This document shows, one piece after another, positions 1-64,000 of a DNA stretch of 64,000 nucleotides. The stretch lies in the NCBI GenBank assembly GCA_903844735.1, contig CAIMUX010000103.1:1-64000 (forward strand), in the 5' to 3' direction. Made by a program: the position numbers and the translations under genes. Source of the DNA: Candidatus Eiseniibacteriota bacterium. Lineage in GTDB: Bacteria > Eisenbacteria > RBG-16-71-46 > CAIMUX01. A model generated the notes under the pieces. It did not search any database. It was not told where the DNA came from and saw only the letters and a list, made by a program, of their open reading frames with translations. Position 1 is the first letter of the stretch, and each line of letters begins with the position of its first letter.

Positions 1-291
1 TCGTCTCCGTCTCCTCGACGTACGAAACGTACGCCTGCGTCGCCGGAGCCGAGCGCGCCTTGCATCCACGACCGACTGGCGCGACCCTGCGCCTTCGCTG
101 TCCGGCCGGGCCCGCGCCGTTGGGGCCTCGTCCGGTGTCTGGAAGGGATCGGGCAACGGACGGTCGTTCAACGTGTTGGCAGGACTCGCCGCGGTGTCGC
201 ATTTCAGGGGTGGTCAAACCCCTGGCCCATGCTGTAATCTTGGCGGGTTGTCTTGGCGGACGGATTCATCTCGGTTCGGAGGTACGGTTCC
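1..291 (+). promoter_or_regulatory. rpmE leader with hairpin and extended -10
   Basis: I recognise no coding sequence in the first 250 bases. Bases 205-224 form a perfect 7-bp stem (CAGGGGT / ACCCCTG) with a 6-base loop. Just downstream, 230-238 reads TGC-TGTAAT, an extended -10 differing from TATAAT at one position. The hairpin covers where a -35 would lie, so it could be an operator for the rpmE-prfA-prmC genes. It has no T-run, which argues against a terminator. Inference from pattern only. Confidence 0.35.
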
Positions 292-5175: not shown

Positions 5176-6615
5176 ATGCACGGAATCATCCGGGTTCTTT
5201 TCATAGCAAGTGCGCTCCTGATAACCGGAAGCATGGCCGCAGCAAAGCCTAACTTCTTCTCCGAAGACGTATTTCCTGCGGACACTTCTAGCATCGCCTT
5301 TGTAACGGGCGAGTTCGGGGAGCTACGGACAGATCCGAACGTTTCGCACAATGGGCTCCACAGCGGAATTGACCTAGCAGTGCCATCAGGTACAGCGGTC
5401 CACGCGCCGTTTCGCTACACGGGAGAGTGCATCGTGGCAGAGCCCCCGAGCAGCTACCTCATGATTCGTGCCACGGACAAGAACACCGCTTTTGTCGCGG
5501 GTCACATTACAACGGGATGGCACAAGGATGATCATCTCTTCTCCAATGACGTGCTGGGCTGGACCGTAGGCAGTCATCTGCACGCGGAGATTCAGGAGAA
5601 GGACAACGCTGTGCTAGACTGGGGGCCAGAGTGGTCCGTGAATCCACGGCTGTATGCCTTTGACAATGTAACGACTTGGACTGCGGACACGCAGGGGCCA
5701 GCCTTCACGCGCTATACCCAGGATCACTACGGTAACACTTGGGACCTGGTGATTGGTGCCTATGATCGGAGAACCTCGACGGCAACGATCCGCAATGGTG
5801 TGTACCAAATCGCCTTGTACGTCGATGGAAACACCACCGCATACGTGCTGGACCATTGCTTCGACACGATGCACGGTTCTTCTAGTGAAATCTACTCGTC
5901 TGGTAACGTAACTCCGGAGACGGATTTCGAGTATTTCTTCCGGTGGAGGGCACCGGACGATGAGAAGCACACTTGGCAAGTGGCGATCTGGGACCTCACG
6001 AACGATCCCGTCCTCAGCGTCTCGGAAGAGTTCACCGCAGAAGCGCCTTCGGGGGTGTCCGCAGATTCGCAGGACGGGCGTGTCCACGTGTCCTGGCAGC
6101 ATCGGGACGTGCGTGCGGGTGGTTGGTTCGATGTCCTCGCCGCCAGGAGCAAGGTGAGCGGATTCGCGAAAGTCAATTCCGAGCCGATCTGGCGATGCGA
6201 GGGCCAGGATGCCTACTCCTACTCGTGGCTCGTGCCGGTGGCGTGGGACTCCGTATACGTGCATGTCGTAGCAGAGGACCAGGAGGGGCACAGAGAGCAG
6301 CTGGGCGAACAAGCTGTGCGCATCGAGCGGGCCTCGGTAATCGGCGTGAAGCTGTTACCTAATCCTTCGGCGGGCGCGTACAGCATTGAGACCAATGTCC
6401 CCGAAGCTGGAGAAGTGCGGATTGAGGTATTTGGAGTTGATGGTCGCCTTGTCGCACGGCCGTTCCTCGGACGGGCCGTTGCCGGACGACTGCTCGTTGA
6501 GTGGGATGGACGGGACGCCGGGGGCATACCGGTGGTGAGCGGGCAGTACTACGTGGCCATTAGCCTCCCCGGCGTACGGAATCGGCTCACGCGGAAGATG
6601 ACGGTAATGAAGTGA
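5176..6615 (+). CDS. Secreted M23-family metallopeptidase with FlgD-like tail
   Basis: 479 residues. A signal peptide (to about residue 23, ITGSMAAA) precedes an M23 (LytM-like) domain. H62 and D66 of GLHSGIDLAVPSG and H134/H136 of GSHLHAEIQ supply the usual zinc ligands and catalytic histidine. M23 enzymes cleave peptidoglycan cross-bridges or glycyl bonds. A Gly-Val-Ser-rich Fn3-like segment follows (about 295-390), then a C-terminal FlgD-like module (VFGVDGRLVARPF ... WDGRDAGGIPVVSGQYYV) that in related lineages is thought to be a surface-sorting or anchoring signal. The start is 4 bases after the upstream stop. Confident in family, not in substrate. Confidence 0.85.
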   Translation: MHGIIRVLFIASALLITGSMAAAKPNFFSEDVFPADTSSIAFVTGEFGELRTDPNVSHNGLHSGIDLAVPSGTAVHAPFRYTGECIVAEPPSSYLMIRATDKNTAFVAGHITTGWHKDDHLFSNDVLGWTVGSHLHAEIQEKDNAVLDWGPEWSVNPRLYAFDNVTTWTADTQGPAFTRYTQDHYGNTWDLVIGAYDRRTSTATIRNGVYQIALYVDGNTTAYVLDHCFDTMHGSSSEIYSSGNVTPETDFEYFFRWRAPDDEKHTWQVAIWDLTNDPVLSVSEEFTAEAPSGVSADSQDGRVHVSWQHRDVRAGGWFDVLAARSKVSGFAKVNSEPIWRCEGQDAYSYSWLVPVAWDSVYVHVVAEDQEGHREQLGEQAVRIERASVIGVKLLPNPSAGAYSIETNVPEAGEVRIEVFGVDGRLVARPFLGRAVAGRLLVEWDGRDAGGIPVVSGQYYVAISLPGVRNRLTRKMTVMK

Positions 6616-9470: not shown

Positions 9471-10718
9471 CTATGAGTTCGTCAAGCGTGAAATACCCTC
9501 CGTTCGTATCTTTCTACGTTTCGGTGACTTCGCGACTGCGTTGGTGAGCCGGGTTCGGGCGCGGCGGTTGTTGGCAGCGGCGCGGCGCTCGCCTGTGGAC
9601 GCGGGCCGGAGCGCGGGCAATCCGGCCTCAGCGTAGACCTCCTCCAGCGTCTGCGGGATGCTCTCTGGTTTCGCCCGTTCGGCCGTCACCCTGGACAGCT
9701 TGGTCCGGGTCCGGGGGACGGGGGCATATCGGTACGGCTGGTTGGTGGTGAGCAGGTGCCAGACGACATGGATGAGCTTGCGCGCGAGAGCGGTGACGGC
9801 GACGTTGTGGCCGCGCTTGTGCCGGACCCGGTAGTAGATGGTCACGAGGGGCGAGGAGCTGCGTGCAAGGATCTGCGCGGCCCCGATGGCAAGCGAACGG
9901 CCATTGCTGTTGCCGGCCTTGGTGATGCCTCCATGGTGGCAGCGGTCTGCGGACTGCCGGACGCGTGGGACGAGCCCGAAGTACGCGGCGAGCTTCTGCG
10001 GGGTGGGGAAGCGCCGGAGATCATCGATGGCGGCGAGCAGTCCGATGGCGACGGTGACGTCGATGCCGGGGATGGTCATGAGAAGCCGGGCCGGTTCGGA
10101 GATTCGGGCATGCCGGAGGAGTTGTTCATCGACGCTGGCGACCCGGACCTCGATCTGTTCCAGAAGATCCAGGGCGTTGTGGAGGATGAATCGCTCCGTA
10201 GGAGGGAGTTCTAAGTCCCGCATCCATCCGCGGGTCTTCTGTGCGAAAGGAGTCCAGCCGGAAGGAAGAGGCTGGAGCCGCCGGTCGAGCAGGCCGTGGA
10301 TGGTGTTCTTGGTGGCGGTCTGCTGCTTGAGGATCAGGCGACGCTGGGAGACCAGTTGCCGGAGGGCCCAGGTCTCCGCGGAAGGCATCTGGACGGCGGG
10401 GAGGAAGTCCGCTCGCAGGAGTTGGGCGAGGATGTGCGCGTCGACCTTGTCGGTCTTGACCCGGGCCCAGGCGATGGCCCGGACCTCGGTGGCGTTTACG
10501 GGAACCACCCGCCCGGCGTGGGCAGCCAGGAGATGGTGGATGGCCCAGGTGTGGAAGGTCACCTCCAGGGCTACCTGGTCCTCGCGGGTGAGCGTCCGGG
10601 CGAAGGCCTCGATCGCCTCCGCCGTCGCGGGAATCTGAAAGTCCTGTCGTTGCTTGCCGTCGAGCGAGAGGCGGCAGACCTGGATGAAGTCCTTGTGGAC
10701 ATCGAGCCCGTAGTACAT
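9471..10718 (-). CDS. IS110-family transposase
   Basis: 415 residues. An N-terminal DEDD, RuvC-like domain begins MYYGLDVHKDFIQVC, with the first acidic residue D6 and a second acidic cluster in VKTDKVDAHILAQLLRADFLP. The C-terminal transposase_20 domain has LLMTIPGIDVTVAIGLLAAI, KLAAYFGLVPRV and GNSNGRSLAIGAAQ, with the catalytic-serine region. I chose ATG 10718; the 49 upstream in-frame residues are not family-like. The C-terminus is unusually long and basic (about 80 residues after the core). IS110 enzymes recombine using an element-encoded bridge RNA. It lies at the left edge of the recombinase-cassette island. Confidence 0.92.
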   Translation of the reverse strand: MYYGLDVHKDFIQVCRLSLDGKQRQDFQIPATAEAIEAFARTLTREDQVALEVTFHTWAIHHLLAAHAGRVVPVNATEVRAIAWARVKTDKVDAHILAQLLRADFLPAVQMPSAETWALRQLVSQRRLILKQQTATKNTIHGLLDRRLQPLPSGWTPFAQKTRGWMRDLELPPTERFILHNALDLLEQIEVRVASVDEQLLRHARISEPARLLMTIPGIDVTVAIGLLAAIDDLRRFPTPQKLAAYFGLVPRVRQSADRCHHGGITKAGNSNGRSLAIGAAQILARSSSPLVTIYYRVRHKRGHNVAVTALARKLIHVVWHLLTTNQPYRYAPVPRTRTKLSRVTAERAKPESIPQTLEEVYAEAGLPALRPASTGERRAAANNRRARTRLTNAVAKSPKRRKIRTEGISRLTNS

Positions 10719-32436: not shown

Positions 32437-32790
32437 GCGGGGTCGGTCGGCCATTCTCAATGACGGAAGTGATCGTGCGGAGGGGCGGGCGGCTCTTTCC
32501 AATGACGGAAGTGATCGTGCGGAGGGTCGGACAGCTTTTGGTACTGGCGGGTGCGATTGTGCGGAGGATCTGGCGAATGTTCTACCGGCTGGCGCGTTGT
32601 GCGGAGGGTCGGGCGACTGCTTCTACCGCCGGCTGCATTCGTGCGGAGGGCCGGCATCCTTGTGTACCGGTGGGTTCATTTGTGCAGAGCCCCGGGAGGA
32701 GTTCCGCACCGGCTCGCGCTGTGTCGCAGAGGGTCGGATGGCGATCTGTACCGGTGCGCGCGATCGTAGAACCACCCGGCAGGTTTGTGA
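32417..32790. repeat. Degenerate 41-42 bp tandem repeat array
   Basis: About 8-9 consecutive units, clearest starts at 32459, 32501, 32542, 32583, 32624 and 32665. Each has TACCGG or AATGAC at its start, a central T(C/T)GTGCGGAGG box and a C-rich end. Units are 41-43 bases with no unique spacers. Sequence identity falls off towards the right. No coding explanation: the unit is not a multiple of 3. Confidence 0.8.
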
Positions 32791-47891: not shown

Positions 47892-49064
47892 TCAGCTTTC
47901 CCGAAGTGCCTCCGCCACGGTCCGGCGGGCCGCGTTTCGGGCAGGGAAGTAGCCGCCGATAATCCCGAGGACGATCGAGGCGAGAAGTCCCGTGAGCAAG
48001 ATCCCCGGCGTGATCCGGAACTTGAACGCCACTTCGCTGAAGCTTGACCAGTTCGTGGTACCGGTGGTGACACCGTGGATCGGCAGGGCGAGCAGGCAAC
48101 CGAGGACGCCGCCCACCAGACAGAGCAGCACCGACTCGATGAGAAAGCTCAGGAGAATGCTCTGTGGTCGGAAACCCAGTGCGAGCATGGTGCCGATCTC
48201 CTTGGCGCGTGCTCCCACGGCGGCGTACATCGTATTCAGTGCGCCGAACACCGCCCCCACCGCCATGATGGCGACTAAGAAGAATCCGAGAGCTCGGATG
48301 ACATTGGCCAGCATCTCCGACTGGGCGCGGTAGTAGTCGTCCTCGTGGCGCGCGTCGATGTGCAGGCGGGGGTCGGCCTCGACCCGCTTGACCAGCGACT
48401 CCAACCCGGATGACGGGTCGGCCAGTCGCAGGGTCAGCGAGCTGTAGCCGACGCGGTTGAACGCCGGGCCCAGGATCTCGCCATCGCCCCAGATCTCCGA
48501 CTCGAAACCGCTGCCATCCGCCTCGAAAACTCCCACCACCTTCCACTCGCGAGAGCCGAAACGGACCGTCTCCCCGAGACCGCACCCGGCGAACCGCTGG
48601 GAAAGTGGTCTTCCCACGATGACCTCCGGCACTCCGAGGTGGTACAGCCTGCCCGCCACCAGCCGCACCATGGGGCGAAGCAGGAGCGCCCGCGCGTCCG
48701 CGCCGCGCACCGTGACATTGGAGGAGCCGACCGGATCGTTGCGGCGCGGCAGGTTCGTCACCACCACGATCTCGGCCGCGGCAAACGCCTGTCCGTTGGC
48801 CAGCCTCGCCACCTCCGGCATCGACTCGATGATGCGCGCCGTCTCCCGGTTCATACCGGAGAGGACCTCGCTGTTGGAGCCGGACCTAGTGATAATGACG
48901 TTGTCGGGGCTACCGGTGACGACCAGCGCCTGGCGAAATCCGCTGGCCAAGGCGAGCGTAAGGACGAGAATGGCCACCACCAGCGCGATGCCGCCCGCCG
49001 TCATCAAGGTAGCGGTCCGCCGCACAAGAAGGTTCCGCAGGTTGTACTGCAAAGGAATCGCCAC
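47892..49064 (-). CDS. ABC transporter permease (MacB/FtsX type), last gene of operon
   Basis: 390 residues. The N-terminal membrane segment (TLMTAGGIALVVAILVLTLA) precedes a large periplasmic MacB-PCD domain, then the FtsX domain with three membrane segments (FFLVAIMAVGAVFGALNTMY, SFLIESVLLCLVGGVLGCLL, ILLTGLLASIVLGIIGGYF) ending PARNAARRTVAEALRES. It exports substrates or acts mechanically with the ATPase at 50410. It is probably co-transcribed with the adaptor, ATPase and second permease in order adaptor-ATPase-permease-permease. A GA-rich repeat separates it from the other permease. Confidence 0.92.
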   Translation of the reverse strand: MAIPLQYNLRNLLVRRTATLMTAGGIALVVAILVLTLALASGFRQALVVTGSPDNVIITRSGSNSEVLSGMNRETARIIESMPEVARLANGQAFAAAEIVVVTNLPRRNDPVGSSNVTVRGADARALLLRPMVRLVAGRLYHLGVPEVIVGRPLSQRFAGCGLGETVRFGSREWKVVGVFEADGSGFESEIWGDGEILGPAFNRVGYSSLTLRLADPSSGLESLVKRVEADPRLHIDARHEDDYYRAQSEMLANVIRALGFFLVAIMAVGAVFGALNTMYAAVGARAKEIGTMLALGFRPQSILLSFLIESVLLCLVGGVLGCLLALPIHGVTTGTTNWSSFSEVAFKFRITPGILLTGLLASIVLGIIGGYFPARNAARRTVAEALRES

Positions 49065-49080
49065 GTCTCTACTCCTCTAC

Positions 49081-49130
49081 TCTCCACTCACTACTCTCCA
49101 CTCACTACTCTCCACTCACTACTCTCCACT
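49081..49130. repeat. 14-bp minisatellite (3.6 units)
   Basis: TCTCCACTCACTAC repeats at 49081, 49095 and 49109, followed by a partial unit at 49123-49130. It lies in the 84-base gap between the two permease genes and, on the coding strand, is purine-rich. Confidence 0.9.
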
Positions 49131-49148
49131 CTTTTCTCTCTCCGCCCT

Positions 49149-57176: not shown

Positions 57177-59861
57177 ATGCTCTTCGACCAGTACAAAGAC
57201 CAGCTCCCCGACATCGACCCGGTGGAGACACGGGAGTGGATGGCTTCCCTCGACGGGGTCCTGCAGGCAGGTGGCCGCAGCCGCGCGCAGTTCCTGCTCT
57301 ACCGCCTGTTGAAGCGGGCGCGCCAACTCGGCATCGGCCTGCCGCCCACGATCCAGACGCCGTACATCAATACGATCAGCCCCGAGCACGAGCCGTACTT
57401 CCCGGGTGACGAGGCGCTGGAGAAGCGCATTCGTCGGCTCGTCCGCTGGAACGCGGTGGCGATGGTGACCCGGGCGAATCACGAGTTTCCCGGGATCGGC
57501 GGCCACCTTTCCACCTACGCCTCGTCGGCCTCGCTCTACGAGGTCGGGTTCAATCACTTCTTCCGAGGCAAGGACGGGCGCAACATCGGCGACCAGATCT
57601 TCTACCAGGGACACGCCGCGCCCGGGATCTATGCCCGGGCCTTTCTCATGGGACGGATCAGCGAAGAGCAGCTCGATCACTTCCGGCGCGAGGCGATGGG
57701 GAAGGGGCTCTCCAGCTATCCCCACGCGCGCCTCATGCCGGGTTTCTGGGAATTCCCGACCGTCTCCATGGGGTTGGGTCCCATCTCCGCCATCTACCAG
57801 GCTCGCTTCAACCGCTACCTGCACGCGCGCGGGATGGCCGACACGAGCCGCTCGAGGGTCTGGGCGTTCCTCGGCGACGGCGAGACCGACGAGGTCGAGG
57901 CGGTCGGCGCCCTCTCGCTTGCGGCGCGCGAGGGGCTCGACAACCTGGTTTTCGTGGTGAACTGCAACCTGCAGCGGTTGGATGGCCCGGTGCGCGGCAA
58001 CGGCAAGATCATCCAGGAGCTGGAAGCGACCTTCCGCGGCGCCGGCTGGAATGTGATCAAGGTGATCTGGGGGCGCGAGTGGGATGAACTCCTGGCGCGC
58101 GACACCGACGGCGTCCTGCTGAGCCGGATGAATGAGACGCTCGACGGGGACTACCAGCGCTTCGCGGCCGAGGACGGGGCGCATGTCCGCGAGCACTTCT
58201 TCGGGGGAGATCCGCGGCTGCGCCGACTCGTCGAGCATCTTTCCGACGGACAGATCGAACGGCTCAGGCGCGGCGGCCATGACTACCGGAAAGTGTACAC
58301 GGCTTACCGGGTCGCCACCGAGATGACCGGCGCTCCCACCGTCATCCTCGCCAAGACGGTCAAGGGCTGGACCCTGGGCGACGTGGCCGAGGGGCGCAAT
58401 GTCACGCACCAGATCAAGAAACTGGGTGAGGACGAGTTGCGCACGTTTCGCGATCGGCTGGAGCTGCCGATCCCCGACGCCAAACTGAAAGAGGCGCCGT
58501 ATTACCACCCCGGCATGGAGAGCGAGGAAGTGCAGTACATGCTGGAGCGTTCTCGCCAGCTCGGTGGGGCACTGCCGAAACGCACCGTGGCGCCGGTCTC
58601 GATCACGCTGCCCGCCGATGACCTGTACGCGGAGTTCCGTCAGGGCACCGTCGGCTCATCGGTGCAGGTCTCCACAACCATGGGGTTCGTGCGACTGCTG
58701 CGGAAGCTCCTCAAGGATCCCCATATCGGCCGGCGCATCGTGCCGATCATCCCCGACGAGGCGCGCACGTTCGGGATGGAGTCGCTGTTCCGCGAAATCA
58801 AGATCTACGCGGCGCTGGGACAGAAGTACACACCGGTGGATCACGAAGTCCTCATGAGCTACGCGGAAGCGGTGGACGGGCAGATCCTTGAAGAAGGGAT
58901 CACCGAGGCGGGAGCGATGGCCAGCTTCCTGGCGGCGGGTACGGCCTATGCCACCCACCGGGAGCCGATGATCCCGTTCTTCATCTTCTACTCGATGTTC
59001 GGGTTCCAGCGCACAGCCGACCAGGCCTGGGCCTTCGGCGACGCGCGCGGCCGCGGCTTCCTGCTCGGCGCCACGGCCGGGCGCACCACCTTGAACGGCG
59101 AAGGGCTGCAGCACGAGGACGGCCATTCACTGGTGCTGGCTTCCACGAATCCCGCTTGCCTGGCCTACGACCCGGCTTGGGCGTACGAAGTCGCCACCAT
59201 CGTGCAGGATGGCTTGCGGCGGATGCACGCGGTGGGGGAGGACCTGTTCTATTACATCACGTTGTACAACGAGAACTTCACCATGCCGGCGATGCCGGAG
59301 GGCGCGCGCGATGGGATTCTCCGCGGCCTGTACCTGTTCCGACCGAGCCCGGAGGCGCGACCGCTGCGCGCCCAGCTCCTCGGCAGCGGCACGATGATGG
59401 CGCAGGTCCTTCGCGCACAGGAGATTCTGCTGGAGAAGTACGGTGTGGCGGCGGACGCCTGGTCGGCGACGAGCTACGGCGAGTTGCGGCGCGAGGCTTT
59501 GGGCGTCGAGCGTTGGAACCGGCTTCACCCGGGGGAGAAGCCGCGGGTGCCGCACGTCACGCAGCTTCTCGTCTCCACCGAGGGACCGGTCGTGGCGTCC
59601 ACGGACTTCATGAAGGCGGTGCCCGACATGGTGGGGCGGTGGGTTCCGCGGGAGTTCACGATTCTTGGCACCGACGGGTTTGGACGTAGCGATACGCGGG
59701 AGGTGTTGCGGCGGTTCTTCGAGGTCGACGCGGAGCACATCGTGGTAGCGACGCTTTCGGCACTCGCGCGAGCGGGAAAGTGTGATGGAGGGCTGGCCGT
59801 GGCGGCGATGGCAGAGTATGGGATCGACCCGGACTCGCCGGATCCGGGGCGGGTGGGGTGA
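57177..59861 (+). CDS. aceE: Pyruvate dehydrogenase E1 component (homodimeric)
   Basis: 894 residues, close to E. coli AceE (887). A thiamine-diphosphate enzyme that decarboxylates pyruvate and acetylates lipoyl-E2. ATG 57177 follows CCGGAGG. Seen: NTISPEHEPYFPGD, HLSTYASSASLYEVGFNHFF, the ThDP-binding FLGDGETDEVEAVG ... VNCNLQRLDGPVRG, KTVKGWTLGD, and the C-terminal EGLQHEDGHSLVLA. No E2/E3 genes adjoin it in this window, so they are elsewhere or it works with a separate complex. It is followed by a 43-bp repeat array rather than a clear terminator. Confidence 0.97.
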   Translation: MLFDQYKDQLPDIDPVETREWMASLDGVLQAGGRSRAQFLLYRLLKRARQLGIGLPPTIQTPYINTISPEHEPYFPGDEALEKRIRRLVRWNAVAMVTRANHEFPGIGGHLSTYASSASLYEVGFNHFFRGKDGRNIGDQIFYQGHAAPGIYARAFLMGRISEEQLDHFRREAMGKGLSSYPHARLMPGFWEFPTVSMGLGPISAIYQARFNRYLHARGMADTSRSRVWAFLGDGETDEVEAVGALSLAAREGLDNLVFVVNCNLQRLDGPVRGNGKIIQELEATFRGAGWNVIKVIWGREWDELLARDTDGVLLSRMNETLDGDYQRFAAEDGAHVREHFFGGDPRLRRLVEHLSDGQIERLRRGGHDYRKVYTAYRVATEMTGAPTVILAKTVKGWTLGDVAEGRNVTHQIKKLGEDELRTFRDRLELPIPDAKLKEAPYYHPGMESEEVQYMLERSRQLGGALPKRTVAPVSITLPADDLYAEFRQGTVGSSVQVSTTMGFVRLLRKLLKDPHIGRRIVPIIPDEARTFGMESLFREIKIYAALGQKYTPVDHEVLMSYAEAVDGQILEEGITEAGAMASFLAAGTAYATHREPMIPFFIFYSMFGFQRTADQAWAFGDARGRGFLLGATAGRTTLNGEGLQHEDGHSLVLASTNPACLAYDPAWAYEVATIVQDGLRRMHAVGEDLFYYITLYNENFTMPAMPEGARDGILRGLYLFRPSPEARPLRAQLLGSGTMMAQVLRAQEILLEKYGVAADAWSATSYGELRREALGVERWNRLHPGEKPRVPHVTQLLVSTEGPVVASTDFMKAVPDMVGRWVPREFTILGTDGFGRSDTREVLRRFFEVDAEHIVVATLSALARAGKCDGGLAVAAMAEYGIDPDSPDPGRVG

Positions 59862-59897
59862 TTCGGCGGGACGACGGGATGTTGGCTCTGAGCGTAG

Positions 59898-60326
59898 GCG
59901 GGCCTCCGTGCCATGGGCACGGCCGGCTACTCACACGTGAGCGGGCTACCGCGCCATTGGCACGGCCGGCTACTCACACGTGAGCGGGCCACCGTGCCAT
60001 TGGCATGGCCGGCTACCCGCAGGCGAGTAAGCCTTGGTGGCAGTGGCACGGTGGCTTACTCGCATGCAAGTGGACCATGGTGACGGCGACACGGGGGCCT
60101 ACTCGCATGCAAGTGGACCATGTGACGGCGGCACGGTGCCTTACTCGAATGCAGGTGGACCATGGTGACGGCGGCACGGTGCCTTACTCGAATGCAGGTG
60201 GACCATGGTGACGGCGGCACGGTGCCTTACTCGCATGCAGGTGGACCATGGTGTCGGCGGCACGCTGGCCTACTCGCACGCAAGTGACCGGCCACACCAA
60301 TGGTACGGTGGCACGCTCACGTGTGC
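59898..60326. repeat. Ten-unit 43-bp tandem repeat array
   Basis: Units start at 59898, 59941, 59984, 60027, 60070, 60113, 60155, 60198, 60241 and 60284; the sixth is 42 bases. Middle units 7-9 are almost identical (shared GTGGACCATGGTG, CGGCGGCACGGTGCCTTACT, CG(A/C)ATGCAG), and the outer units diverge on both sides. Each unit ends in a short dyad-like box (TCGCATGCAAG or TCACACGTGAG). No spacers, so not CRISPR. Confidence 0.93.
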
Positions 60327-60761
60327 GTGCACCTTGGTGATTCCGTCACGACGACCCCGGTTGCGCTGCTCCCGCAATATCCGAAAGACGCGAATGCCCT
60401 GCTGTCTAGCAGGTTACGCGGCCGAGAGCGGAGTCGCCAGATGGAGGGCCGACGGCTCAGGATTTGCGGTCGATGTCTGATTACAGCGGGTTCCCGCCGA
60501 GGTGCGCCTTCCACAGGCACGGCGTGAGCAGCGCGACGTCCTTGGCCGGTTGTGGGTGAGGGGCGAGGGTAACGTCCCGCCGTGGAATCCAGGGGCCCGG
60601 TCGGGCCTCAGGCCAGCTCAGGTGGAGGGGTTTGGGGTGGCCACAGGTGGGGGCATTTGGGTGGCCGCCGGGGGCGAGGTACGCAGAGACGGTCATTTTG
60701 GGGCGGTCCCCCTTCGTTCCATGCAGGGAGCCACAGACCTTAGTCCTCAGAGAGCCGCCGG
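60327..60761. other. Intergenic stretch between repeat array and helicase
   Basis: 435 bases with no gene I can support. It is G-rich, with near-repeats of GGGGTGGCC and GGGTGGCCGCC near 60640-60672. It is the last stretch before the 3' end of the minus-strand helicase. Confidence 0.4.
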
Positions 60762-63566
60762 TCATCCACCCACCTCCACCCACCCGATCAGCTTCGCCGC
60801 GTAGCTGCCCCCCTGCGGAACGATCTGCCGGTGCCGAAGCTCCCGCTCCAACATTGGTTCGACCTGCTCGTGGAGGAGCTTCTGCCTCGCCGCGGGCGAG
60901 GAACCACCGTCCCGATACCCCCGCCGATCGAAGATGCCTGTGCCCGCGCGCTCGAGGCGACCATCCCGTCGCCCGTCGTCACCGACCGCGAGAGGGAGCA
61001 CGCAAGCGCGATGCTCCCCGGATGGTCCCCTCGTCTCCACCAGCCACCAGGTGAGCACTCCGGCGCCGTTGGAGCCATCGGACCCCACGGACCCCTCGGG
61101 CTCACCGGACCCGGCAACGGCGTATCCGATCCTCTCCGGGGCCAACTCCTGCCACCGGCGAATCGCCGCCTGCACGAGTGGGTGGTCGAGGCCGAGAAGC
61201 TCCAGGCCCGCGCGCTCGCGGGCCGCCTCGCGGTTCAGTGTGAAGTGGCATTCGATCGCCTCGTCGCCGCCGGTCACGACATAGGTCCCGTCGTCCCGTG
61301 CGGTGATCTTCTTGCCCTCCGCCTCCAGCGCGACCCGCAGGAAGCAAAGCACGCGGTCAAGGCCAGGCTTGACGTCGGCGAACGGCCTGTAGTCGTCGAG
61401 ACAGAAACCGTCGAGGTCCTGGAACAGCTCAAACACAACCTTCCTGGCTTCGGAGGCGTTCGAAAGCGCAGCTTCGAGCTCTTCCTTGGTGCGCCGGAGC
61501 TCAGGGTCCGAGAGCGCCTCGCGGTACAGGCGGTCGTACGAGAGACGCTCCGAGAGTTGGCCCAGGACCTGGCTACGAAGATCCTCCGCGACATTTCCAT
61601 GCTCGTCGACCTTGCCCAGCGCCTTGGCGATCTCCTGCAGCTTCTCATCCAGCAGCAGGAAGATGCGCCCCTCGATCGTGTCGGACAGAACGAGGTTGTA
61701 AACCTGTGCCGTGTGCTTCTGGCCGTAACGATGGATGCGGCCGATCCGCTGTTCCATGTCCATCGGGTTCCACGGCAGGTCGAAGTTGAAGAGCACCCGG
61801 GCGATCTGGAGGTTGATGCCTTCCCGGCCGGCGGCGGTGCAGACCAGGACCTTTGGGCCGTCGGCCTTGCGGAACCGGCGCTCCGCGGCCAGCTTGGCCC
61901 CGTGATCGCCACCGCGCAGCACGACGACACCCTGACCCGGATAGGTTCTCTCGATCTCGCGCCCGAGCAGGTCCACCGTTCCGAGGTAGGTGGCGAAAAT
62001 GACGATCTTCTCGTTCGGGTCCTGGTCCCAGAGCGCGCCCAGTCCGCGCAGGAGCATCTCCACCTTTGTCTCGCGGCGCTCGGGAAACGCGTCCAAGAGA
62101 TTGCGAATACGAAGTCGTTCCTCCGGCAGGGCAAGACTCACGGCCATGGCGGCCACGTCTTCGCCGGTCGCGGCGGCATACTCTCCGGCGGCGGCATCAG
62201 ACGCCAGCTCGAGCTCCTCCTCATTGAGCCGCTTGAGCAGCTTCACCCGCAGCTCCGCAAGAATGGCATCGACGCGGCCGCACCCGATCGCGTCGCGCGG
62301 GACGTCGTACTCCTCGTGGATCAGTTCGCGGGCCTCCGCCAGAAGCTGCTGTCGGCCGTCGATGTTCAGTTCCTGGTCCTTGATGATCGCCTCGTGCAGC
62401 GTGAGCATCAGCAGCCGTCGGCGCAGCGTGCGGCGAACTGCCGCGAAACTCGAGGCGGCGATCTTCTGGAAGATCGTCATCACGAAGCCCAGGGCGCGCC
62501 CCTGGTTACCCCGCCGCAACGCCAGCGCGAACCCGTCTTCCAGGTAGTCCTTGAGCGCCGCGTAGAACGCTCGCTCCTCGTCCACCATCGTGAACGATTC
62601 GGTGTGGACCCACCGGCGCGCGAAGAGCGGCGAACCATCCGGACGGCACGCATCGGCCTTGGTGCGGCGAAAGACAACGGCGTTCAGGCGGTGGCGGTTG
62701 TCGATCATGTCCTCGTGGCTCTTGAACAGCGTGGGGTTTAGCAACTGAATGAGCATCCAAAACCGGAAGTGGTCGCCCTGGTGCGGCGTTGCCGAGAGCA
62801 GTACCAGGTCGCGGGCGTGGCCTTTCAGGGCCTCGGCCAGCTTGTAGTTCTCCGTCTTGGTGATCTTCTTGCCGTTGCGGCAGGCGGTCAGGTGGTGAGC
62901 CTCGTCGAACACCACCAGGTCCCAGGGCGGGGCATCGAGCAGCCGCTTGATGCGCGCGGGGCGTTTCAGGGTGTCGATGCTGGCGATCAGCAGGTCGTGC
63001 TTCATGAACGCGTTCGACCGGCGATCGGTGACGTCACCCTCGCTGCCGAAGACCTCGAAGTCCAGGCGAAAAACCTCGTTCATCTCCCGGTGCCAGTTGT
63101 TCACCAGCCCGGCCGGGACGACGAGCAGCGCGCGCCGCAGTTCGCCCCGACTCGCGAGTTCGCGCAGCAGAAGAGCCGTCTCGATCGTCTTGCCGAGCCC
63201 CACCTCATCTGCGACTAGGAATCGGCGGGGAGACGCGGTGGCGATGCGGTGCGTCAACACGACTTGATGGGGGAGCAGGTCGATTGGGGCGGCGGTCAGT
63301 GCGGCCGCGCTTTCCATGAGAGGCAGGGCATGCGCCTCGTATTCCAGCCACGCCTCTCGGCGCCGCTCGTCGCCCGAGGCGACCCCGTCGATGACCCGGT
63401 CGGTGCGGGATTGGAACGCCTGTAGAGCATCGACCGCGACCAGCCGCTCGCCACCGGCGAAGAACGCCCGGACGTAACCGTTGCGCTCCGGGGCGACGAC
63501 GACTCCTTCGCCGTGCGCCGCGTGGCTGACACGCTGCCCGGGGAGGTAGGCGAGGGGTTCGGTCAT
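60762..63566 (-). CDS. SNF2/RapA-like DEAD-box helicase
   Basis: 934 residues from ATG 63566 (MTEPLAYLPGQRVSHAAHGE); 32 upstream in-frame residues are not family-like. An N-terminal domain (GEGVVVAPERNGYVRAFFAG, similar to an SH3-like fold) precedes the helicase: Walker A ADEVGLGKTIETALLLREL, DEAH in VVFDEAHHL, LLSATPHQGDHF, and motif VI QRIGRIHRYGQKHTAQVYNL. A Gly/Ser-rich insert (GSGEPEGSVGSDGSNGAG) lies near the C-terminus. Such helicases occur as DNA translocases in DISARM (DrmD) and some BREX types, and alone. Neighbouring gene and position suggest a defence locus, but the type is not established. Confidence 0.88.
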   Translation of the reverse strand: MTEPLAYLPGQRVSHAAHGEGVVVAPERNGYVRAFFAGGERLVAVDALQAFQSRTDRVIDGVASGDERRREAWLEYEAHALPLMESAAALTAAPIDLLPHQVVLTHRIATASPRRFLVADEVGLGKTIETALLLRELASRGELRRALLVVPAGLVNNWHREMNEVFRLDFEVFGSEGDVTDRRSNAFMKHDLLIASIDTLKRPARIKRLLDAPPWDLVVFDEAHHLTACRNGKKITKTENYKLAEALKGHARDLVLLSATPHQGDHFRFWMLIQLLNPTLFKSHEDMIDNRHRLNAVVFRRTKADACRPDGSPLFARRWVHTESFTMVDEERAFYAALKDYLEDGFALALRRGNQGRALGFVMTIFQKIAASSFAAVRRTLRRRLLMLTLHEAIIKDQELNIDGRQQLLAEARELIHEEYDVPRDAIGCGRVDAILAELRVKLLKRLNEEELELASDAAAGEYAAATGEDVAAMAVSLALPEERLRIRNLLDAFPERRETKVEMLLRGLGALWDQDPNEKIVIFATYLGTVDLLGREIERTYPGQGVVVLRGGDHGAKLAAERRFRKADGPKVLVCTAAGREGINLQIARVLFNFDLPWNPMDMEQRIGRIHRYGQKHTAQVYNLVLSDTIEGRIFLLLDEKLQEIAKALGKVDEHGNVAEDLRSQVLGQLSERLSYDRLYREALSDPELRRTKEELEAALSNASEARKVVFELFQDLDGFCLDDYRPFADVKPGLDRVLCFLRVALEAEGKKITARDDGTYVVTGGDEAIECHFTLNREAARERAGLELLGLDHPLVQAAIRRWQELAPERIGYAVAGSGEPEGSVGSDGSNGAGVLTWWLVETRGPSGEHRACVLPLAVGDDGRRDGRLERAGTGIFDRRGYRDGGSSPAARQKLLHEQVEPMLERELRHRQIVPQGGSYAAKLIGWVEVGG

Positions 63567-63573
63567 GCCGGAC

Positions 63574-64000
63574 TCACGAGATCCGCGGGTGATGCAGGCC
63601 GACGTAGGCCTCCCCGTCGAAGTCGGGATCCTTCTCCTCGGAAACGAGAATCCGCTCGACATCCGCCTCGGCGCCGCCCCACAGGCACCGGCCGATCGGA
63701 ATCCGGGCCTCGTCCCGCCCCGCAGCCGTGCGCCAGAAGTACTCCTCGGTGGCCCGCACCATCCCGAGACGCGTTCGGCCCGAGGGCAGCCAGAAGATCA
63801 ACGCCGCCTGGGCTTCGTAGTGCTCCTGGAAGCTGAGCACGGCCGCCTTGAGGTCGGTTTCCAGCCACGTCTCGGCGTCCGACTCAGCCAGGGAGTCGAG
63901 GCAACCCTCAAGCCCGGCCACCACGAGAGCGTCACCTTGCCGGCCGGGCAGATCTTCCGGCCAGGCTTTCCGCAGAGCGAAGAACTCGCGCAGGGAAAGA
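63574..64000 (-). CDS. Partial conserved gene upstream of the helicase
   Basis: The frame runs off the window end and stops at 63574, 7 bases before the helicase ATG, so the two are probably in one operon. The visible 141 residues include LREFFALRKAWPEDLPGRQG, DALVVAGLEGCLDSLAESD, QEHYEAQAALIFWLPSGRTR and DPDFDGEAYVGLHHPRIS-stop. I recognise the pattern as a conserved protein next to this kind of helicase but cannot name it. The conserved tryptophans and 'IFWLPSGR' suggest a structured domain. Confidence 0.7.
   Translation of the reverse strand, partial: LSLREFFALRKAWPEDLPGRQGDALVVAGLEGCLDSLAESDAETWLETDLKAAVLSFQEHYEAQAALIFWLPSGRTRLGMVRATEEYFWRTAAGRDEARIPIGRCLWGGAEADVERILVSEEKDPDFDGEAYVGLHHPRIS

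Follow-up and report, generated by a model that had tools for sequence, protein, structure and literature searches.

BOX elements of Streptococcus pneumoniae are composite repeats of the form boxA-boxB(n)-boxC (PMC3049150). In these elements, which are dispersed between genes and specific to their lineage, a variable tandem core of short units is enclosed by conserved end modules. Stem-loops are predicted, and array changes are explained by slippage, by unequal crossover, or by excision followed by reinsertion. REP, BIME, and REPIN elements, which are associated with TnpA-REP (RAYT; PMC2817692, PMC8266576), comprise extragenic palindromic units that are sometimes arrayed and occur in both orientations, in association with a GTAG-like tetranucleotide next to the palindrome. 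MITEs, in turn, are non-coding, dispersed elements with inverted arms. Here, we describe a tandem array of 43-bp units in a 64-kb stretch of bacterial DNA (referred to here as the window), which shares features with all three types. We consider it likely that this array is one copy of a dispersed, non-coding intergenic repeat family that spread by duplication or by transposition within its genome. That estimate covers both modes of spread, of which segmental duplication and non-autonomous transposition are sub-cases weighed separately below. The best reading of the family is a lineage-specific, BOX-like composite intergenic repeat that is now decaying.

The array lies on the plus strand at positions 59885 to 60313, between the convergent genes for an aceE-type pyruvate dehydrogenase E1 (57177 to 59861, plus strand) and an SNF2 helicase of the HmaA/DrmD type (60762 to 63662, minus strand), and it starts 24 to 37 bp past the aceE stop codon at 59861. 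The 43-bp array recognized in an earlier sequence-only reading was borne out by two measures. TRF returned two adjoining arrays of 43-bp period (59898 to 60016, 2.8 copies, score 203; 60045 to 60286, 5.7 copies, score 372), and self-identity at a lag of 43 reached 73% over 59898 to 60326, the highest value among the 1,272 windows of 429 nt in the 64 kb (lags 20 to 80). Individual units start at 59885, 59928, 59971, 60014, 60057, 60100, 60142, 60185, 60228, and 60271. The units abut, with no unique spacers between them as a CRISPR would have.

Within the array, a degenerate first unit (59885 to 59927) is followed by two A-type units with CACGTG boxes (59928 to 60013; 93% identical), a transitional unit that joins the two blocks (60014 to 60056), and five B-type units with GCATGC-type boxes (60057 to 60270). 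Two of the B-type units are identical, and the one at 60100 is a base shorter (42 bp); the other four, starting at 60057, 60142, 60185, and 60228, are 86 to 100% identical among themselves. An inverted end unit on the minus strand (60288 to 60328) matches the reverse complement of 59972 to 60033 and forms a long imperfect hairpin with it. The proposal that the middle units are nearly identical and the ends diverged thus holds only in part, since the A and B blocks are only about 50 to 60% alike and the last unit is inverted. A candidate explanation of the B block as an A unit turned round was rejected by in-register comparison, one orientation being dominant; most minus-strand unit matches stem from the palindromes and from the inverted end unit. 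The 43-bp unit itself consists of two imperfect palindromes, and positions G10, G24, and C28 are invariant across 40 distinct units of the family. The palindromic boxes that had been ascribed to every unit are enriched (GCATGC and CACGTG occur three times each in the array, where the window-wide rates predict 0.17 and 0.09), but they are missing from some units.

The array proved to be far from unique in its genome, a 5.4-Mb draft of 142 contigs that is about 96% complete. A search with the unit retrieved 68 matches there. The family occupies about 14 places: the window copy, on contig C103; about 11 copies on other contigs (C135, C12, C133, C110, C98, C22, two on C13, C130, C84, and C30); and a few relics (C2, C110:73156, and C80). 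The copies on C110 and C98 stand at two contig ends with about 22 end bases in common and probably belong to one array. Copies hold from one or two up to about twelve units (counts at contig ends being lower bounds) and are diverged (about 65 to 90% identity). A conserved part of the family is a non-coding right end of about 105 to 165 bp, which adjoins the array in every copy not cut by a contig end and is partly deleted in one C13 copy. In the window it occupies 60316 to 60420 on the plus strand; this stretch recurs at 11 places adjoining an array, with a partial match on C20 besides. The right end is constant and the unit number variable, but a common left end is seen only inside subgroups of copies.

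Outside this genome, the repeat was not detected. The array sequence had no match in the 46 other genomes of the phylum, and a unit profile gave no credible match in them; its single partial match (G039, E value of 0.0066) is taken as chance. A distant BLAST search of phages and plasmids and a unit-pattern scan of IMG/VR viral contigs likewise returned no match to the repeat. As for the site behind aceE, the most similar aceE in an order-mate (G006, 81%) is cut by a contig end, and a family-mate (G002) has other genes directly after aceE; neither offers an orthologous site to compare. The nearest aceE, from a "Candidatus Eisenbacteria" bin (81%), points to the probable taxon of the genome.

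The history of the arrays can instead be read from paralogs within the genome. The window copy and the C130 copy have in common 31 bp of left flank (GCGGGACGACGGGATGTTGGCTCTGAGCGTA, reaching into the first unit; identical in both; window left flank, 59862 to 59897, plus strand), a counterpart of the degenerate first unit, and some 240 bp of right-hand sequence, including a further right flank (60421 to 60556, plus strand) that is common only to these two copies (87% identity). Between these shared flanks stand about ten units in one case and about one in the other, which indicates that the array expands or contracts inside fixed flanks. In addition, units within an array can be far more alike (identity of 0.96 in C98, 0.89 in C110, and 0.87 in C133) than units from different arrays (about 0.66). 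In C12 and C135, by contrast, the units have stayed distinct, and the two copies can be aligned over their full length at 74%. Such differences in unit number, together with homogenization within arrays, form the pattern that slippage or unequal crossing-over would give, in agreement with the sequence-only reading on this point.

A second kind of within-copy matching concerns the inverted arms found in long copies. These span 100 nt with 81% complementarity in C135, where both arms contain CTCTGTACCGTTGCACGGCCGGT, and 79 nt with 72% complementarity in C12, where both contain GTGTCATGGACCGGCCGGT; the arms of the window copy are gapped, and C133 has none. In each of the three copies with arms, the right arm scores higher against its own copy (76 for C103, 98 for C135, and 72 for C12) than against any other (at most 64, 76, and 68), which suggests, for these three copies only, that arms are homogenized inside each copy by template switching. 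Homogenization of inverted-repeat arms by this route is a known process (PMC8604942), and the observed matching fits template switching between imperfect inverted repeats with no need for selection. The window array folds as one long imperfect hairpin, far more stable than shuffled sequences, with a z score of −7.6 for DNA and, when the right end is added, of −5.0 for RNA. In the hairpins of single units, however, compensatory change and covariation were no better than in shuffled controls, and neither selection on an RNA nor a protein that binds the dyads is therefore supported.

On the preferred reading, in which the array is a copy of a dispersed repeat, copies would have arisen by duplication or transposition within the genome, each with a left end, a variable number of 43-bp units, an inverted end unit in the long copies, and the right end of about 105 to 165 bp. 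Every copy would then have changed independently, with unit number altered presumably by slippage or unequal crossing-over and the inverted arms re-matched within the copy by putative template switching at hairpins. We think that the element serves no dedicated function in the cell and probably persists between genes, where it would do the least harm; some copies may have a regulatory role. The family offers a compact natural case, in a little-studied and probably uncultured lineage, in which array growth and within-copy arm matching are readable from paralogs in one genome.

Compared to BOX, the family resides in a GC-rich host, numbers about 11 copies, has a unit of two palindromes, and carries inverted arms inside the element. 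No single left-end module is conserved across all copies, and no insertion sequence with matching ends was found; the likeness is one of layout, and no sequence kinship is claimed. The family differs from REP, BIME, and REPIN elements in its few loci, in long arrays that run mostly in one direction, and in having no intact RAYT gene. From MITEs, it is set apart by the tail of 105 to 165 bp beyond the arms, by several copies that have no inverted arms, and by the lack of demonstrated target duplications.

How the copies spread is less clear than that they did. One possibility, which we hold tentatively, is that they are by-products of segmental duplication of an ancestral locus with the order EamA, array, right end, and leader, and were not mobile themselves. 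In the C133 copy, and apparently in C12, the left flank runs up to the stop codon of an EamA transporter remnant; C135 has an inner EamA piece on its left, and C30 and C13 carry sequence resembling that after the intact EamA gene on C80, which is itself followed by a single unit-like hairpin. On the right, C135 and both C13 copies continue into a 350-bp leader and a gene of the unnamed family P0001, and C12 and C22 into the leader alone, with no P0001 gene. Since the EamA and leader flanks are common to several copies, the copies spread partly with neighboring sequence, and such fragments would be expected equally from transposition and from plain segmental duplication. On the other hand, the C84 left flank is unrelated to the others, C103 and C130 have a different one again, and the breakpoints vary from copy to copy.

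Slightly more doubtful is a non-autonomous transposable element of the MITE or REP/REPIN type, served by a transposase in trans. In its favor are the dispersal of copies between genes, their conserved end, the inverted arms that long copies carry, and a CTAC/GTAG-like tetranucleotide between many units (CTAC in many, TTAC, CCAC, and others elsewhere, and thus not constant). The conserved right end, however, lies outside the inverted arms, unlike in a textbook MITE, and this placement counts against the main reading as well. No terminal repeats held in common and no target duplications were seen at the shared ends; inspection of the C103 and C130 borders, which are not sharp, showed no target-site duplication. 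Nor was an empty site seen or a mobilizing enzyme found in the genome, where the Y1 family was searched, and the copies are diverged from one another. The sole Y1 (IS200/REP-type) transposase match in the draft genome is a broken fragment (L231, C118:57345-57610) that lies close to a contig end, with its parts in two frames. As no intact, repeat-flanked TnpA-REP gene turned up in this draft and no units lie near the fragment, a RAYT-linked REP repeat was rejected.

Some further explanations fared worse. It is improbable that the copies belong to an unnamed family of mobile elements whose mobile form is a long single-strand hairpin bearing a conserved right tail, and which takes along pieces of adjacent genes (EamA, leader-P0001) and is moved by an unrecognized enzyme. 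Equally hard to sustain is a structured RNA, such as a 3′ untranslated region stabilizer or a terminator between convergent genes: the stable RNA fold and the convergent genes around the C103 and C22 copies are what it predicts, but no terminator or promoter and no Rfam match was found at the array, the unit hairpins do not covary, and other copies, for example, that on C30, are not between convergent genes. The proposed array of binding sites for a matS-like, iteron-like, or nucleoid protein that recognizes a dyad in each unit is very unlikely, for although the spacing is regular at 43 bp (about four helical turns), dyad boxes occur in most units, and three positions are invariant, the dyad halves do not covary beyond shuffled controls, the two different box centers (CACGTG and GCATGC) lie about one base apart, no replication gene was noticed next to the window array, and the repeat was found in this genome only, where its copies decay to relics.

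The genes to the right of the window array do look like a defense locus, as the earlier reading had suggested. The SNF2 helicase resembles HmaA, BrxH, and DrmD, with scores below the NCBIfam cutoffs, and it is followed on the same strand by a PIN-domain gene, a DUF1156-type methylase, and a DUF499 protein; the defense-like set spans C103 60762-72028 on the minus strand (window 60762-64000 and L111). The supposed tie between the array and this locus did not survive comparison with the other copies, which adjoin unrelated genes or gene remnants. No defense-like set was noticed beside them (neighbors were mostly judged by eye, from mechanical gene calls), and the array family is therefore not part of the defense locus. 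This case warns against counting such arrays beside defense genes as parts of defense systems.

Several minor observations concern other features. The 350-bp leader (76 to 88% DNA identity) precedes multicopy genes of the P0001 family, which has no Pfam or NCBIfam match (L101:7872-8982, L107:9808-10918, L107:13936-14738, L226, L227, L228, and L229); on C119 and C76, the gene bodies behind it are strongly diverged. Immediately after the leader in the C22 copy (L106, approximately 6280 to 6420, minus strand) lies a broken reverse-transcriptase-like stretch (YRLVR.GDDFVVLCKDLE) that, read by eye, looks like a group II intron remnant. A further palindromic repeat of the type GGAGGTGTG...CACRCCTC is found at the leader start (L102, approximately 200 to 290, minus strand; L107, approximately 9820 to 9900) and is common to C12, C135, and both C13 copies. 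Elsewhere in the window, another tandem array (32517 to 32654), whose period is 40 to 42 bp, is possibly a coding repeat of 14 residues, and a simple 7/14-bp tandem repeat (CCACTCT) occupies 49061 to 49132.
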